Below, piece by piece: positions 12,938-22,271 of a DNA stretch of 33,085 nucleotides. Origin of the DNA: Anaerolinea thermophila. GTDB taxonomy: Bacteria; Chloroflexota; Anaerolineae; Anaerolineales; Villigracilaceae. The notes under the pieces were generated by a model. It did not search any database. It saw only the letters and a program-made list of their open reading frames with translations, and was not told the DNA's origin. Numbering within the stretch: position 1 is the stretch's first letter; every line of letters begins with the position of its first letter. The stretch spans positions 1 through 33,085 of the forward strand of contig DYKZ01000011.1 in the NCBI GenBank assembly GCA_020722345.1, in the 5' to 3' direction. The position numbers and the translations under genes were made by a program.

Positions 12938-15154
<2,217 letters not shown>

Positions 15155-15433: not shown

Positions 15434-17065
15434 ATGTCGAATGAGATCCTGGTAATCACAGCCGATAAACCCTTTGGCGAGTTGATACGCCAGAGCCTGG
15501 AAGAAACAGGCCGTTTCATCGTCTCTGTGACCGGCGAGGCTGCCAAGGCGAAATCCTACTTACAGGCGGAGAATTGCAGCGTAGTCTTCTTGGATGCTGG
15601 GGAGCGCGTTGAGGAGACGCTCGCGATTGGCCGTGAGTTGCGCCAGATACGCCCCGACCTGCGGTTCGTTGTTATTGTCGAGGCGAGACAATCTTCCACG
15701 ATGGAGGAACTCCTGCCGCAGGATTATCTCTCCAAGCCGTTCTACCTCCCCGACCTGATGGAGACGGTCAACAAGCTGTTCCCTATCGAGCGACACAGCC
15801 CCACGAAGCAGGAAAAGTCGAAGGGCGTCGAAGCGCCCGATGCGCCGGCCTGGCTGTCAGACGTGACCCGCGCCGCCCAGCATCTCACCCGCCTGACGCT
15901 CGAGTCCTCGGCCCAGGCCGCCCTGATTACCCACAACGACGAGTTGTGGGCCTATGCTGGGCAACTGCCGCAGTCGGCGGCGCGCGAACTGGCCGACGTG
16001 GTCGGCCGCTACTGGGATCGCAAGGAGGAGAGCGACCTCGTCCGTTTCGTGCGGCTTTCCTCCACGAACGCCGAGCACATGCTCTACGCCACGCGTTTGA
16101 GGCCGTCCATGGTGCTGGCCATGGTCTTCGACGCCGAAACGCCCTTCAGCACCATCCGCTCGCAGGCTACTCAACTGGTTCGTTCACTTTCGGCCTCGCC
16201 GGCCGAGGAGGAGCCTGGCGGGGACGATGAAACCCCGCTAACGTCCATTGCCGATATCCTTTCCGACGTGCCGTCGCCCAATCCGGACATGGAGGCGAAA
16301 CAGCCTCCCGCGCCGCGCTCGCGCCTCGGCGCGGATACCGAGATTCTGTTCGACAGTCAGGGGCAGGCAGCAGAAGGGAATTCGAGCGACAATCAGCGCC
16401 GCGTGGGCAACGAGAACCTTTCGCCGAATTTCAGCCGCGAGTCGTCGCCGGCAGTGCCGATCAGCATGATGAAGAAAGGCGAGCACCTAATCGCCACCAG
16501 GCCGCACGCCAGCGTCGAGTTGGACGAAGAACTGGCGCTGACGGTCAAATCAAAAGCCAGGAAGAAGCAGCCGAACTCTCCAGAAAAAGGCCCCGGCGAG
16601 ACGCACCCGCGTTCGATCACCGAGGTGGCGGGTAAGATCGTCCTCGAGCCTGTTTCCCCGGCAGTCTTCAGCCTGCAATACGCCTGCTTGCTGATCCCGC
16701 GCTTCACGCGCCACCACCTGACCGGGGACCTTTCCGAGCGCTTGAGCAAATGGGTCTCGGATATCTGCGTCGCCTTCGGGTGGCGGCTGGAATACATCTC
16801 GGTGCGCCCCGAATATTTGCAGTGGATCGTCAATGTCCCGCCGGCCACCTCCCCCGGTTACCTGATGCGCATCATGCGCCAGCAAACTTCTGAACGCATC
16901 TTCGCCGACTTCCCAGCCCTTGGCAGGGAAAACCCCTCCGGCGATTTCTGGGCCCCCGGTTACCTCATCATGGGCGGGTCCCAGCCGCCGCCAGCCCAAC
17001 TGATCAAGAATTTTATCTCCCAAACCCGCCAGCGGCAGGGGATCTCGCAGCAAATCCGTCGGTAA
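15434..17065 (+). CDS. REC domain, Roadblock-like region and catalytically dead IS200-type transposase domain fusion
   Basis: A 543-residue protein. Residues 1-118 form a degenerate receiver domain: VVFLD with D54 as possible phosphoacceptor, K101 in YLSKPFYLPDL, but only one N-terminal acidic residue and no conserved Thr/Ser. Residues about 137-255 resemble a Roadblock/LC7 fold (AALITHNDELWAYAG, MLYATRLRPSMVLAMVFD, TIRSQATQLVRSL). A charged, disordered linker follows (255-400). Residues 405-540 align end to end with the IS200/IS605 TnpA (Y1 transposase) fold: YACLLIPRFTRHHLTGDLSERL, then AFGWRLEYISVRPEYLQWIVNVPP, then LMRIMRQQTSERIFADFP. The HUH motif DHxH is replaced by E460-Y-L-Q463, and the catalytic Tyr position in the last helix is F527. 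It should bind but not cut DNA or RNA hairpins. It probably acts as a regulator; the partner and signal are unknown. Confidence 0.8.
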   Translation: MSNEILVITADKPFGELIRQSLEETGRFIVSVTGEAAKAKSYLQAENCSVVFLDAGERVEETLAIGRELRQIRPDLRFVVIVEARQSSTMEELLPQDYLSKPFYLPDLMETVNKLFPIERHSPTKQEKSKGVEAPDAPAWLSDVTRAAQHLTRLTLESSAQAALITHNDELWAYAGQLPQSAARELADVVGRYWDRKEESDLVRFVRLSSTNAEHMLYATRLRPSMVLAMVFDAETPFSTIRSQATQLVRSLSASPAEEEPGGDDETPLTSIADILSDVPSPNPDMEAKQPPAPRSRLGADTEILFDSQGQAAEGNSSDNQRRVGNENLSPNFSRESSPAVPISMMKKGEHLIATRPHASVELDEELALTVKSKARKKQPNSPEKGPGETHPRSITEVAGKIVLEPVSPAVFSLQYACLLIPRFTRHHLTGDLSERLSKWVSDICVAFGWRLEYISVRPEYLQWIVNVPPATSPGYLMRIMRQQTSERIFADFPALGRENPSGDFWAPGYLIMGGSQPPPAQLIKNFISQTRQRQGISQQIRR

Positions 17066-17110: not shown

Positions 17111-19912
17111 ATGCCTCCCACCCTTTACCTGATAGACGGCCACGCCCTAGCCTATCGCATGTATTTTGCCCTGACGGGCGGGTATGGCGCCAGCGCACCC
17201 TCTCGCTGGCAGACCTCCAAAGGCGAACCAACCGCCGGAACGTATGGCTTTTCCCGCGAACTGCTGCGCATCTACGAACAAGAAAAGCCCGATTACCTGG
17301 CAGTAGCCTTCGATACCGGCAAAACCTTCCGCGACGAAATCTTCCCTGAATACAAAGCCACCCGCGCCAAAATGCCCGATGACCTGCGCCCGCAGATCGA
17401 GCGCATCCGCCAAATCGTGGACGCTTTCAACATCCCGCGCCTCGAGCAGGAAGGCTTCGAAGCTGACGACGTGCTCGGCTCCACCGCCCGCTGGGCCGCC
17501 GGGCAGGGACTGGGCGTAAAGATCATCACCGGCGACCGCGACCTGCTGCAACTGGTGAATGAACGCACCATCGTCTACCTCGCCGGCGACGCCCAGAACT
17601 ACATCACCGCCGAGGACGTGTTCGGCAAACTGCACGTCCGCCCGGAGCAGGTGGTGGACTACAAGGCCATTGTAGGCGACAAATCCGACAACATCCCCGG
17701 CGTGCCGGGCGTTGGCGAAAAAACGGCCGAGAACCTGCTGGCCAAATTCACCGCCCTCGACAACATTTACGCCCACCTCGATGAGGTGGAGCCGCGTTGG
17801 CGGACAAAACTGGAGGCCGGGAAAGACTTGGCCTACATGAGCCGCGACCTCGCCCGCATCCGGACCGATTTGCCGGTCGCGCTGGACCTGGAGCAGGCGC
17901 GCCCCGACGCCTTCGACCCGGCCAAAGTGCAGGCGCTCTTCCAGGAACTCGAATTCCGCTCGCTGGTGGACAAACTGCAGAAAATAGCCGGGGCGCCCGC
18001 CGCCGCGCCCGTAGCAGGGCAGCAGTTGAGCCTCTTCGGGGAGGCTCCGCCCCCGGTCCGCGAAGCCCGCCCCGAGTTCCGCAGCGAGGCGGGGCTGGAC
18101 GTGGTGGTCGTGGATTCGGCTTCCGCTCTCGAGTCGCTCGTCCGGGCGCTGGAGTCCGCCTCCATCATTTCCCTCGATACCGAAACAACCTCCACCGACG
18201 AGATGACCGCCGAACTAGTGGGCATTTCACTGGCGGTGCGGGAGGGGCAGGGGTACTACATCCCGGTCGGCCACCGCTCCGGCGCGCAACTGCCGCTCGA
18301 ACAGGTGGTTGCGGCGCTGCGCAAGCCGCTCACCGACGCCCGCATCCCGAAGGCCGGGCACAACCTGAAATATGACTTTATCGTGCTGGGGCGCCACGGC
18401 CTGCGCGTTGCGCCGCTGGCCTTCGACACAATGCTGGCCGAGTGGCTGCTCGACCCGAACTCGCGCAGCCTCGGCCTGAAGAACCTGGCCGCGGCCCGCC
18501 TGGGGCTGGAGATGACCCGCATCGAAGATCTGATCGGCTCCGGCAAGAAGCAGATTTCTATGGCCGAGGTGCCCATCGCCGAGGCAGCCCCCTATGCCGC
18601 TGCGGATGCGGAGGTTGTCATCCGGCTCAAACCCCTCCTCGAGCGGGAACTCAGCCGCTTCCCGAAATTGCCGCCCCTGCTGTCCGAAATGGAGATGCCG
18701 CTTGTCCCTGTGCTGGCCGATATGGAAATGGCCGGCATTGCGCTGGACAAGGACTTCTTCGTTGCCTTTGCCGCTCAACTCAACGAACGCTTGGAAGCCA
18801 TCGAGCAGGACATCTACGCCGCGGTCGGCAAGACCTTCAACATTAACTCCACCCAGCAACTCTCGGACGTTCTTTTTGGGGCCCTGCATCTGTCCCCCCC
18901 CGGCGGCGGCAAGAAAACCGCCTCCGGCCACTATTCCACCGCCGCAGGCGTGCTGGACGAGATGAGCGGTCAGCACCCGGTGGTGGACATGGTGCTGGAG
19001 TACCGCGAACTTGCCAAACTCAAATCCACCTACGTGGATGCACTGCCGCTGCAAATCCACCCCGAGACTGGACGCGTGCACACCTCCTACAGCCAGACGG
19101 GCGCGGTGACCGGCAGGCTGTCCTCCACCGACCCGAATCTGCAGAACATCCCCATCCGCACCGAACTGGGCCGCCGCGTCCGTCGCGGGTTTATCGCCGC
19201 TCCGGGGAACGTACTCCTTTCGGTGGATTACTCGCAGATCGAACTGCGTATTGTGGCGCATATGGCCGGGGATGAGGCCATGATTGCTGCCTTCCGCGCC
19301 GGGCAGGACATCCATGCTACGACCGCCGCAGCCATCTACGGGGTGCCGCTCGCCGAGGTGACGAAGGAACAGCGCCGCCACGCCAAGGCGATCAACTTCG
19401 GCCTCATCTACGGCATGTCTGCCTTCGGGCTGACGCGTTCCACCGAACTAACCCTGGCCGAATCGGAGGAGTTCGTCGGCGCCTACTTTCGCCAGTTCCC
19501 GGGTGTCAAGAAATACCTGGACGGCATCCGCCGCTCGGCGCGCGAGACGGGCTACGTGGAAACTCTCTTCGGCCGGCGGCGGTATTTCCCGGCGCTCAAG
19601 GGGACGCCGAATGTGGCAATCAAGAACCGCGAGGAACGCGAGGCCATCAATGCTCCCATCCAGGGCACGGCTGCTGATATAATGAAAATTGCCATGATCC
19701 GCATCCAGCCTGCGTTGGCAGAGGCCGGTCTGCACGGACAGATGCTCCTGCAGGTGCACGATGAACTGGTGCTGGAATGTCCGCAGGCCGAGTTGCAGGA
19801 AACCGTGCGGGTGACGCGGCAGGTGATGGAGAACGTGTACCCGCTGTCTGTACCGCTCGATACCGAAGCCCGCTGGGGCCGGAACTGGGATGAATTGACC
19901 GTCATCGAATGA
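17111..19912 (+). CDS. polA: DNA polymerase I with 5'-3' and 3'-5' exonuclease domains
   Basis: A 933-residue polymerase used in Okazaki-fragment processing and repair. The 5'-3' exonuclease domain (about 1-290) shows YLIDGHALAYR, GFEADDVLG, ITGDRDLLQL and VGDKSDNIPGVPGVGEKTA. The 3'-5' exonuclease domain (about 320-510) keeps SLDTETTS, GHNLKYDFIVLG and PYAAADAE, so proofreading residues are present, unlike in Thermus Taq. The polymerase domain carries motif A (VDYSQIELRIVAHMAGD), motif B (RRHAKAINFGLIYGMSAFGL) and motif C (LQVHDELVLE). The length is slightly above E. coli Pol I. The start is the ATG at 17111, giving PTLYLIDGHALAYR; no strong Shine-Dalgarno. It lies 45 nt after the REC/TnpA fusion gene and 28 nt before the TPR gene. 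Confidence 0.97.
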   Translation: MPPTLYLIDGHALAYRMYFALTGGYGASAPSRWQTSKGEPTAGTYGFSRELLRIYEQEKPDYLAVAFDTGKTFRDEIFPEYKATRAKMPDDLRPQIERIRQIVDAFNIPRLEQEGFEADDVLGSTARWAAGQGLGVKIITGDRDLLQLVNERTIVYLAGDAQNYITAEDVFGKLHVRPEQVVDYKAIVGDKSDNIPGVPGVGEKTAENLLAKFTALDNIYAHLDEVEPRWRTKLEAGKDLAYMSRDLARIRTDLPVALDLEQARPDAFDPAKVQALFQELEFRSLVDKLQKIAGAPAAAPVAGQQLSLFGEAPPPVREARPEFRSEAGLDVVVVDSASALESLVRALESASIISLDTETTSTDEMTAELVGISLAVREGQGYYIPVGHRSGAQLPLEQVVAALRKPLTDARIPKAGHNLKYDFIVLGRHGLRVAPLAFDTMLAEWLLDPNSRSLGLKNLAAARLGLEMTRIEDLIGSGKKQISMAEVPIAEAAPYAAADAEVVIRLKPLLERELSRFPKLPPLLSEMEMPLVPVLADMEMAGIALDKDFFVAFAAQLNERLEAIEQDIYAAVGKTFNINSTQQLSDVLFGALHLSPPGGGKKTASGHYSTAAGVLDEMSGQHPVVDMVLEYRELAKLKSTYVDALPLQIHPETGRVHTSYSQTGAVTGRLSSTDPNLQNIPIRTELGRRVRRGFIAAPGNVLLSVDYSQIELRIVAHMAGDEAMIAAFRAGQDIHATTAAAIYGVPLAEVTKEQRRHAKAINFGLIYGMSAFGLTRSTELTLAESEEFVGAYFRQFPGVKKYLDGIRRSARETGYVETLFGRRRYFPALKGTPNVAIKNREEREAINAPIQGTAADIMKIAMIRIQPALAEAGLHGQMLLQVHDELVLECPQAELQETVRVTRQVMENVYPLSVPLDTEARWGRNWDELTVIE

Positions 19913-19940: not shown

Positions 19941-22271
19941 ATGACAGGACGCGAAGAAATCTACAAGAAAGCCATGAGCCTGGGGCATTCTGCCGCCTGG
20001 GACCAGCAATGGGACAAGGCAGTCTCCGCCTACCAGAAGGCGCTGGAGGAGTTTCCCGACAACCCGAAGGCACTCTCTAACCTCGGGCTGGCGCTCTTCG
20101 AGTTGCAGCGTTTTGATGAGGCTTTGCAGGCTTACCAGAAGGCGGCGCAGGCCTCGCCGAACGACCCTGTCCCGCTGGAAAAAGCGGCGCAGTTGTTCGG
20201 GCGGCTGGGAAATATCAAGGAGGCGATTGCCGCCTACCTGAAATCCGCCGAACTGTACATCCGCGGCCAGGAATCCCAGAAAGCCGTCCAGTGCCTGGTC
20301 AACATCATCCAACTGGACGCAGAGCATCTCCCTGCGCATACGTACCTGGCGATGGTGTACGAACGCCTGGATCACAAGACGCAGGCAATCAACGAGTACC
20401 TGGCGGTTGCCAGCCTGTTCCAGCGCAGCGGCAATACCGACAAGGCGGCAGAGATGATTGGGCGCGCCCTGCGCATCAATTCGGGCAGCGCCGAGGCGCG
20501 CCGGGCGCAGAACATGCTCAAGAGCGGGCAACTGCTGCCCAAGCCGCCGCGCCCGCAGGGCGGCACCGCCCCGCTGACCATGGCGCAGGTCAAACAACTC
20601 GAAGCGCCCAAGTCGGAAGATTCGGGCCTGGACCCGGTCGCGGAGGCGCAGCGAAAGGCGCTCACCAAACTGGCGGAAATCCTGTTCGAGATCTCGGACG
20701 AGAGTGTAGAACTGCCCGCCCCGCGTCGTCCGGGAATGCAGGCGATCATGCACGGCACCGGCCCCTTGAGCATCAAGCAAAGCGACCGCGGCAGCATCAT
20801 GCTGCACATCAGCCAGGCCATTGACGCCCAAACGCGGCAGGATGACGGTCTGGCCGCCGAGGAACTAGAAAAGACGCTCAATTCTGGCCTCAAAAACGCG
20901 GCTGTCTATTTCAACCTGGGATTCCTGCACTTCAAGATGGGACGCTTCGAAAGCAGCCTGCGCAACCTGCAAACAGCTGTCCAGCACCAGGGCTACGCCC
21001 TCGGCGCCCGGCTCCTGAGGGCCCAAATCCTGCGCCGGCTGGAGCGGCTCAATGAAGCCGTGGCGGAATATCTCGAGGCCCTCAAGGCCGCCGACCTGGC
21101 GGTGGTCGCCCCCGAGCAGGCGGCTGAACTGTCCGGCCTGTACGAGCCGATCATCGAGTCCCAGCGGCAACTTGAGAACGCCGCCGATCAGGAGAAGTTG
21201 TGCGACAACATCCACAATCTGCTGATGCAGCCCGACTGGTGGGCGCGGGTGGCCAAAGCGCGCGAGCAATTGCCCAAACCGGCGGCGGACATGCCGCCCA
21301 TGCCGCTGGCCGAAATGATGGCGCAGGCGCAGAGCAGCCAGGTCATTGACACGATCGGGAAAGTCCACACCCTGGCGAAAGCCGGCTTCCTGCGCACCGC
21401 CATGGACGAGGCCTTTGAAGCGCTTAAATACGCTCCCACCTATCTGCCGCTGCATTCGCTGATTGGCGACCTGCTCATCCAAGAAGGTCGGACGCAGGAT
21501 GCGATCACCAAGTACAGCGTGGTGGCGCAGGCCTACCGGACGCGCGGCGAGATCAACTCTGCCATTGACCTGCTACGGCGCATCCTGCGCCTTTCGCCGA
21601 TGGACCTGAACATCCGCGCCACCCTCATCGAACTGCTCTCCGCCCGCGGGTCTGTGGATGAAGCCATCGGCGAATACATGGATGTTGCCGACATCCATTA
21701 CCGCCTCGCCGAACTCGACCTGGCGCGCAAAACCTATGCGGCCGGCCTGCGCCTGGCCCAGCAGGGAGAGTCGAGCCGCACCTGGAGCATCAAGATCCTC
21801 CAGCGCATGGCCGACATTGACATGCAGCGCCTCGACTGGAAGCAGGCGGTGCGCGTCTACGAGCAGATTCGCACCCTCCAACCGGACGATATTTCCGTCC
21901 GCAAGCAGTTGGTCAACCTGAACCTGCGTCTAGGAGATGTCCAGCAAGCCAGCGCCGAATTGGAAAATTTCCTGTCCTACCTCCAGAGCGCCAGCCGGCG
22001 TTCGGAAGCAATTCCATTCCTGGAGGAACTGGTCGCCGAGCAGCCCCAGCAGCCAATTTTGCGCCGCGCCCTGGCAGAGGAGTACCGCCAGGCCGACCGG
22101 ATCGAAGAGGCCGTGGCCCAACTCGACGCGGTGGGCGACTATCTGCTCGATGCCGGCGACCGCGCCGGCGCGATCCAGGCCATCGAGGCCATCGTTGCCA
22201 TGAACCCCCCCAACGTGGCAGATTACATCGCGCTGTTGAGAAAACTGGAAGCAGACGGATCGCAAGCATAA
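19941..22271 (+). CDS. Large tetratricopeptide repeat protein
   Basis: A 776-residue protein without signal peptide or membrane helix. TPR units are clear at the N-terminus (WDKAVSAYQKALEEFPDNPKALSNLGLALFELQRFDEALQAYQKAAQASPNDP), around residues 95-195, in the centre (AAVYFNLGFLHFKMGRFESSLRNLQTAV) and throughout the C-terminal half (from about 470), ending with AVAQLDAVGDYLLDAGDRAGAIQAIEAIVAMNPP. A Pro/Gly-rich, low-complexity joint (about 198-215) and a region with no clear repeats (about 240-300) divide it. TPRs form a protein-binding scaffold; the partner cannot be deduced. It follows polA by 28 nt, with weak GAGAAG upstream of the ATG, so it may be co-transcribed with polA. A terminator follows. 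Confidence 0.88.
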   Translation: MTGREEIYKKAMSLGHSAAWDQQWDKAVSAYQKALEEFPDNPKALSNLGLALFELQRFDEALQAYQKAAQASPNDPVPLEKAAQLFGRLGNIKEAIAAYLKSAELYIRGQESQKAVQCLVNIIQLDAEHLPAHTYLAMVYERLDHKTQAINEYLAVASLFQRSGNTDKAAEMIGRALRINSGSAEARRAQNMLKSGQLLPKPPRPQGGTAPLTMAQVKQLEAPKSEDSGLDPVAEAQRKALTKLAEILFEISDESVELPAPRRPGMQAIMHGTGPLSIKQSDRGSIMLHISQAIDAQTRQDDGLAAEELEKTLNSGLKNAAVYFNLGFLHFKMGRFESSLRNLQTAVQHQGYALGARLLRAQILRRLERLNEAVAEYLEALKAADLAVVAPEQAAELSGLYEPIIESQRQLENAADQEKLCDNIHNLLMQPDWWARVAKAREQLPKPAADMPPMPLAEMMAQAQSSQVIDTIGKVHTLAKAGFLRTAMDEAFEALKYAPTYLPLHSLIGDLLIQEGRTQDAITKYSVVAQAYRTRGEINSAIDLLRRILRLSPMDLNIRATLIELLSARGSVDEAIGEYMDVADIHYRLAELDLARKTYAAGLRLAQQGESSRTWSIKILQRMADIDMQRLDWKQAVRVYEQIRTLQPDDISVRKQLVNLNLRLGDVQQASAELENFLSYLQSASRRSEAIPFLEELVAEQPQQPILRRALAEEYRQADRIEEAVAQLDAVGDYLLDAGDRAGAIQAIEAIVAMNPPNVADYIALLRKLEADGSQA

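Follow-up and report, generated by a model that had tools for sequence, protein, structure and literature searches.

A catalytically dead TnpA-type domain conserved behind receiver and roadblock domains in a polA-linked protein of Anaerolineae

The window analyzed here is a 33,085-nucleotide stretch of an Anaerolinea thermophila assembly (Chloroflexota). An earlier note, made from the sequence alone, proposed that one of its genes joins a degenerate receiver domain, a Roadblock/LC7-like region and an inactive IS200/IS605 transposase domain. Such a gene raises the question of whether it is the remnant of a mobile element or a host gene that has kept a transposase fold, and, if the latter, what the fold might be used for.

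Domain architecture and lost catalytic residues

We built an AlphaFold2 model of the full protein with 50 homologues. The model contains three confident domains (approximately residues 3-115, 139-253 and 414-534, pLDDT mostly >90) joined by disordered linkers. The roadblock domain was the most conserved part of the protein, with a mean identity of 72% to the window protein and a pairwise omega within the genus of 0.03-0.11. The corresponding values were 71% and 0.05-0.22 for the Y1 domain, 39% and 0.10-0.36 for the receiver (REC), and 28% and about 0.3-1.0 for the linker.

Table 1 Features of the gene and its conserved downstream neighbours (window coordinates).
Feature	Position	Strand	Basis
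REC-roadblock-linker-dead Y1 protein gene, 543 aa	15434..17065	+	ATG at 15434 to TAA at 17065, frame intact
Receiver (REC) domain, residues 3-116	15440..15781	+	Pfam sub-threshold; AlphaFold2 and VIA-align to Spo0F
Roadblock/LC7 (MglB-like) domain, residues 139-253	15848..16192	+	AlphaFold2 of isolated domain, Foldseek
Disordered Pro-rich linker, residues 254-410	16193..16663	+	pLDDT, identity, Thr motif counts
Catalytically dead Y1/TnpA domain, residues 411-536	16664..17041	+	PF01797, NF033573, Foldseek
Former HUH motif, Y461-L462-Q463	16814..16822	+	Sequence; alignment with active TnpA
Former Y---Q motif, F527...T531	17012..17026	+	Sequence; alignment with active TnpA
polA (DNA polymerase I), conserved downstream neighbour	17111..19912	+	Pfam; adjacency; gap 45 nt
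TPR-repeat protein gene, third in this conserved arrangement across most of the order	19941..22271	+	Pfam; neighbourhood comparison

The assignment of the C-terminal domain to TnpA was borne out by several searches. Residues 411-529 matched the Pfam family Y1_Tnp (PF01797; E 4e-12; score 46.7 bits, cut-off 23). TnpA proteins were the only significant matches when the C-terminal part was searched against PDB sequences (best 2ec2, E 4e-10). With the C-terminal domain of the model, Foldseek matched the TnpA of ISDra2 (E 7e-10), and VIA-align to 2ec2 gave a Z of 16.6 and 1.8 A over 109 residues. The NCBIfam model for IS200/IS605 transposases, NF033573, accepts the window protein just above its cut-off (55.1 bits against 55), so automated annotation may label such genes as transposases.

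Alignments to TnpA placed Y461 and Q463 at the two HUH histidines, F527 at the catalytic tyrosine and T531 at the metal-ligand glutamine (Y+4). The first three of these residues, as well as D54 and K101 of the receiver, are those named in the earlier note, to which T531 and the loss of the receiver's acidic pair can now be added. In the 51 order-level sequences compared, the first HUH position was Y in 43, H in 5, and F, C or A in one each, and the second was Q in 42, L in 4, H in 2, R in 2 and E in 1. A complete HUH pair was found in 0 of the 51, while active TnpAs from Chloroflexota and PDB have histidine in 12/12 at both positions and tyrosine in 11/11. At the catalytic tyrosine position, 34 of the order-level members have F and 17 have Y. 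The expectation that homologues would share both losses therefore holds for the HUH pair, and universal loss of the tyrosine was rejected. Single HUH vestiges occur elsewhere in the class, in family f49 (DHVQ in L186, DLIH in L187).

The dead domains also share residues of their own. W450 was found in 48/51 order-level and 16/16 far members, and R532 in 51/51 and 14/16, respectively. A417, another residue specific to the dead clade, is common to near and far members, and the same position is H in 12/12 active TnpAs. In a tree whose root was not inferred, one branch split active from dead Y1 domains (support 93/96). Judging from these sequences, a single origin of the dead Y1 domain is likely.

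The receiver proved degenerate, as had been proposed. Response_reg (PF00072) matched residues 5-112 with 25.7 bits, below the cut-off of 30.2, and the model of the N-terminal domain aligned to Spo0F with a VIA-align Z of 18.2, which places it in the REC fold. D54 is present in 42/43 members and K101 in 39/44, but the acidic pair for Mg2+ is missing (about T9-A10; position 9 is T in 38 members). Ordinary phosphorylation of the receiver is doubtful because this pair has been lost even though D54 and K101 are kept, and so is the description of the protein as a regulator in the response-regulator sense.

For the middle domain, VIA-align on the full model listed almost only REC chains, and the domain was therefore modelled separately with AlphaFold2. 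Foldseek then gave MglB as the best match (6izw_B, E 9e-8), with MP1-p14 and Ragulator among the other matches. The Roadblock/LC7-like region is thus a roadblock fold, despite the lack of a match to the Pfam roadblock model (PF03259) in the window protein, which is also absent among the PF03259 matches of its own genome.

The linker has a pLDDT mostly <50. T[RA]P was observed 29 times against 5.0 expected and ET[RAHK] 30 times against 5.0 expected, in homologues that are not independent. Threonine motifs recur as ETRP-like motifs in near linkers and as TR-x-hydrophobic-D-D repeats in the linkers of some far members (L129, L133 and L139). Those of both near and far linkers look like docking or phosphorylation sites.

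Distribution, selection and gene order

A homologue was found in 55 of 61 relatives, mostly as one full-length copy with 45-65% identity in the same family. A profile search of the window's own genome found no second Y1_Tnp match. Around the gene we found no short-spaced inverted repeats of at least 12 nt and no IS ends. The Y1 domain is an inactive TnpA fold under purifying selection, with a dN/dS of about 0.05-0.2. A decaying insertion sequence or a gene-fusion artefact could account for the lost catalytic residues, but full length is kept in many genera, orthologues occur in tens of genera, omega is low, the gene is single-copy and IS ends were not found, so that this explanation is extremely improbable; a decayed insertion sequence was rejected on the purifying selection and the orthologues. 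The earlier statement that the frame is intact and the suggestion that the fold was exapted agree with these results, given its conservation in Chloroflexota. Homologues with an intact HUH pair flanked by IS ends, which would have spoken for a mobile element, did not appear in the order-level family.

Far-diverged relatives elsewhere in the class are 325-1146 aa long and consist of REC, a long linker, roadblock and pseudo-Y1, except that REC is absent in the 325-aa protein L138. REC-roadblock proteins that lack Y1 occur in further families of the class, and matches to the roadblock profile hardly occur outside the class. The pseudo-transposase fusion is real, ancient and conserved, and its distribution is class-wide. 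The dead IS200/IS605-type domain appears to be domesticated, a mobile-element enzyme turned into a host component.

We analyzed the gene neighbourhood and found polA to be the next gene downstream in 23 of the 29 order-level cases (the window included), followed in most by the TPR gene. In two more cases polA lies one gene further on. At L040, L043 and L049 the gene does not adjoin polA. Outside the order, polA is next in 8 of 15 far loci; L143 stops at a contig edge. Compact REC-roadblock-Y1 proteins of family f49 (~380 aa; L184, L185, L187 and L199) are preceded by a gene for ~740-840 aa, with no polA following. The suggestion that the position between ligA and polA may be meaningful was therefore right for polA, whose linkage is supported by these comparisons, and not for ligA, which was rejected as a conserved neighbour. 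Between ligA and the gene lies a tandem 19-nt direct repeat, TTGCATTATAGCG[GA]GGAAT (window 15117-15154). Because REC-roadblock-only relatives (L192, L193 and L194) are also located upstream of polA, we infer that in Anaerolineae the REC-roadblock protein linked to polA is older and suggest that the Y1 domain was fused onto it later, the alternative being Y1 loss.

Comparable catalytically inactive proteins are known. TldR is an inactivated TnpB that acts as a guide-RNA repressor; it is likewise a nuclease-dead transposon protein exapted by a host, but it derives from TnpB rather than TnpA and is RNA-guided. The origin-binding domains of SV40 T-antigen and papillomavirus E1 have a HUH-like fold without catalysis, but these are viral initiators of unrelated architecture. 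The fold and profile of the window protein's C-terminal domain are those of IS200/IS605 TnpA (IS608/ISDra2). In contrast to these enzymes, the window protein lacks the HUH motif, the tyrosine, the metal-ligand glutamine and IS ends, is single-copy and carries the domain fused behind REC and roadblock. It also does not look mobile, with a fixed gene order, the sole Y1_Tnp match in its genome and no short-spaced inverted repeats around the gene that could form hairpin ends. TnpA-REP (RAYT) proteins, called the first domesticated prokaryotic transposase, are catalytic (PMC8266576). They too are TnpA relatives acting as host genes, but their HuH and Tyr are intact and they process REP hairpins, whereas the window protein is without catalysis; at the window gene itself, a search found no short-spaced inverted repeat. 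Domesticated prokaryotic TnpAs described so far are catalytic, and the conserved pseudo-transposase here has survived the loss of all its cleavage residues, within an architecture of signalling domains and next to a gene of core replication/repair. A survey of TnpA-Y1 restricted itself to sequences that have HuH and Y, and set long fusions and HuH/Y-less sequences aside as probably non-functional (PMC6006769). Sequences like the present one are of the kind that was filtered out there. In our searches of open-access PMC papers, we came across no account of a REC-roadblock-Y1 protein.

Possible roles of the fusion protein

Roadblock domains dimerise and bind Ras-like GTPases. The window's own genome encodes a 180-aa Ras-like GTPase directly after a PatA-N-like (PATAN, DUF4388) gene (pair at L205:660-2037, GTPase at L205:1495-2037) and two MglB-like roadblock proteins. 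Because of these properties and genes, protein docking fits the fusion better than nucleic-acid binding does. We tentatively favour a reading, with low confidence in its mechanism, in which the domesticated dead TnpA domain on the polA-linked REC-roadblock protein forms part of a signalling scaffold that has no catalytic activity, is probably a dimer and belongs with roadblock/small-GTPase systems. In this scheme, dimerisation and/or binding of an MglA-type, Ras-like small GTPase would fall to the roadblock domain, and the pseudo-receiver would contact a partner without undergoing the usual Mg-dependent phosphorylation. The linker, disordered and rich in Thr, could be a target of phosphorylation or a docking site, and a surface for docking or dimerisation would come from the pseudo-Y1 domain. 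Since the gene is co-oriented with polA, the protein may be expressed jointly with, or act on, DNA polymerase I or the synthesis step of repair. We infer every step of this scheme that goes further than the folds, the selection and the linkage. The MglA-MglB-RomR polarity module of Myxococcus shares the roadblock GAP fold, and its receiver proteins RomR, AglZ and FrzS work with MglA. The window protein differs in having receiver and roadblock in one chain with a pseudo-transposase and in lacking a linked GTPase. Mgl GTPases near PATAN genes have been described before (PMC4316618). The Ras-like GTPase and the other roadblock genes of the genome are all unlinked to the REC-roadblock-Y1 gene, and a linked MglA GTPase was rejected, none being seen beside the two small roadblock genes. 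The unlinked position of these genes, the several far members away from polA and the basic Y1 positions kept in the order count against a scaffold.

The last of these points bears on the hairpin DNA or RNA binding proposed in the earlier note. If the dead TnpA domain were a structure-specific binder of ssDNA hairpins or RNA, it could serve as the output of a regulator or tether Pol I to folded lagging-strand DNA. The kept TnpA fold and the polA linkage would suit such a role. R423, R482, R498 and K525 are mostly still basic in the window's order, and nucleic-acid binding there is conceivable for this reason. However, the basic residues of active TnpAs have mostly been lost: R425, present in 12/12 active TnpAs, has become P/S/T in dead domains, and the near-invariant R508 has become P in the order and D/S/E in far members. 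The net charge of the Y1 domain, a crude proxy for binding, is +5 to +12 in active TnpAs of the phylum (median +8, n=8), and falls to a median of +2 in the order (+4 in the window) and mostly to between -4 and -11 (about -7) in far members. The linker and REC are acidic. The loss of charge weakens the case for DNA or RNA binding as the general function of the domain, and hairpin binding, although possible, is not favoured; we regard this role as rather unlikely. It is also conceivable, though less probable still, that the gene order with polA reflects slow genome rearrangement and that the protein acts in an unrelated roadblock/REC pathway. The mechanistic link to Pol I is indeed conjectural, and L040, L043, L049 and several far members lie elsewhere, but adjacency to polA persists across families whose other neighbours differ. 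TnpA dimers assemble their active sites in trans, so an inactive subunit could poison the enzyme, and the protein might block IS200/IS605 transposition as a dominant-negative partner in mixed dimers with active TnpA. This is very improbable, since there is no second Y1_Tnp match in its genome for it to inhibit, the dead domain has diverged from active copies, and the fusion and the polA linkage would be left unexplained.

A signalling scaffold remains our preferred reading. The protein makes it possible to test whether a roadblock/receiver pathway acts on Pol I in bacteria. The broadest picture would be a dead HUH domain fixed in a polA-operon protein across much of the class, where it would link Ras-like GTPase/roadblock signalling to Pol I in the role of a sensor or adaptor, together with a second dead-Y1 branch paired with Mrr-like nucleases; as a whole, we consider this improbable.

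Short dead-Y1 proteins and Mrr-like genes

A gene with Mrr_cat and Mrr_N domains often follows the genes for paralogues of the full protein and for short dead-Y1 proteins that stand alone (about 170-200 aa). Dead-Y1 genes precede an Mrr-like gene at L055, L056, L057, L060, L062, L065, L066, L146 and L147. Conversely, of the 14 close Mrr homologues that the relatives carry, 8 adjoin a dead Y1 gene; the window's own genome has no such Mrr gene. PADLOC found no match for the window protein or the short dead-Y1 proteins. A defence system was rejected on this ground; only the Mrr-like partners of the paralogues match candidate defence models (PDC-S02). Judged by eye, several of the Mrr-like proteins seem to have a degenerate catalytic motif.
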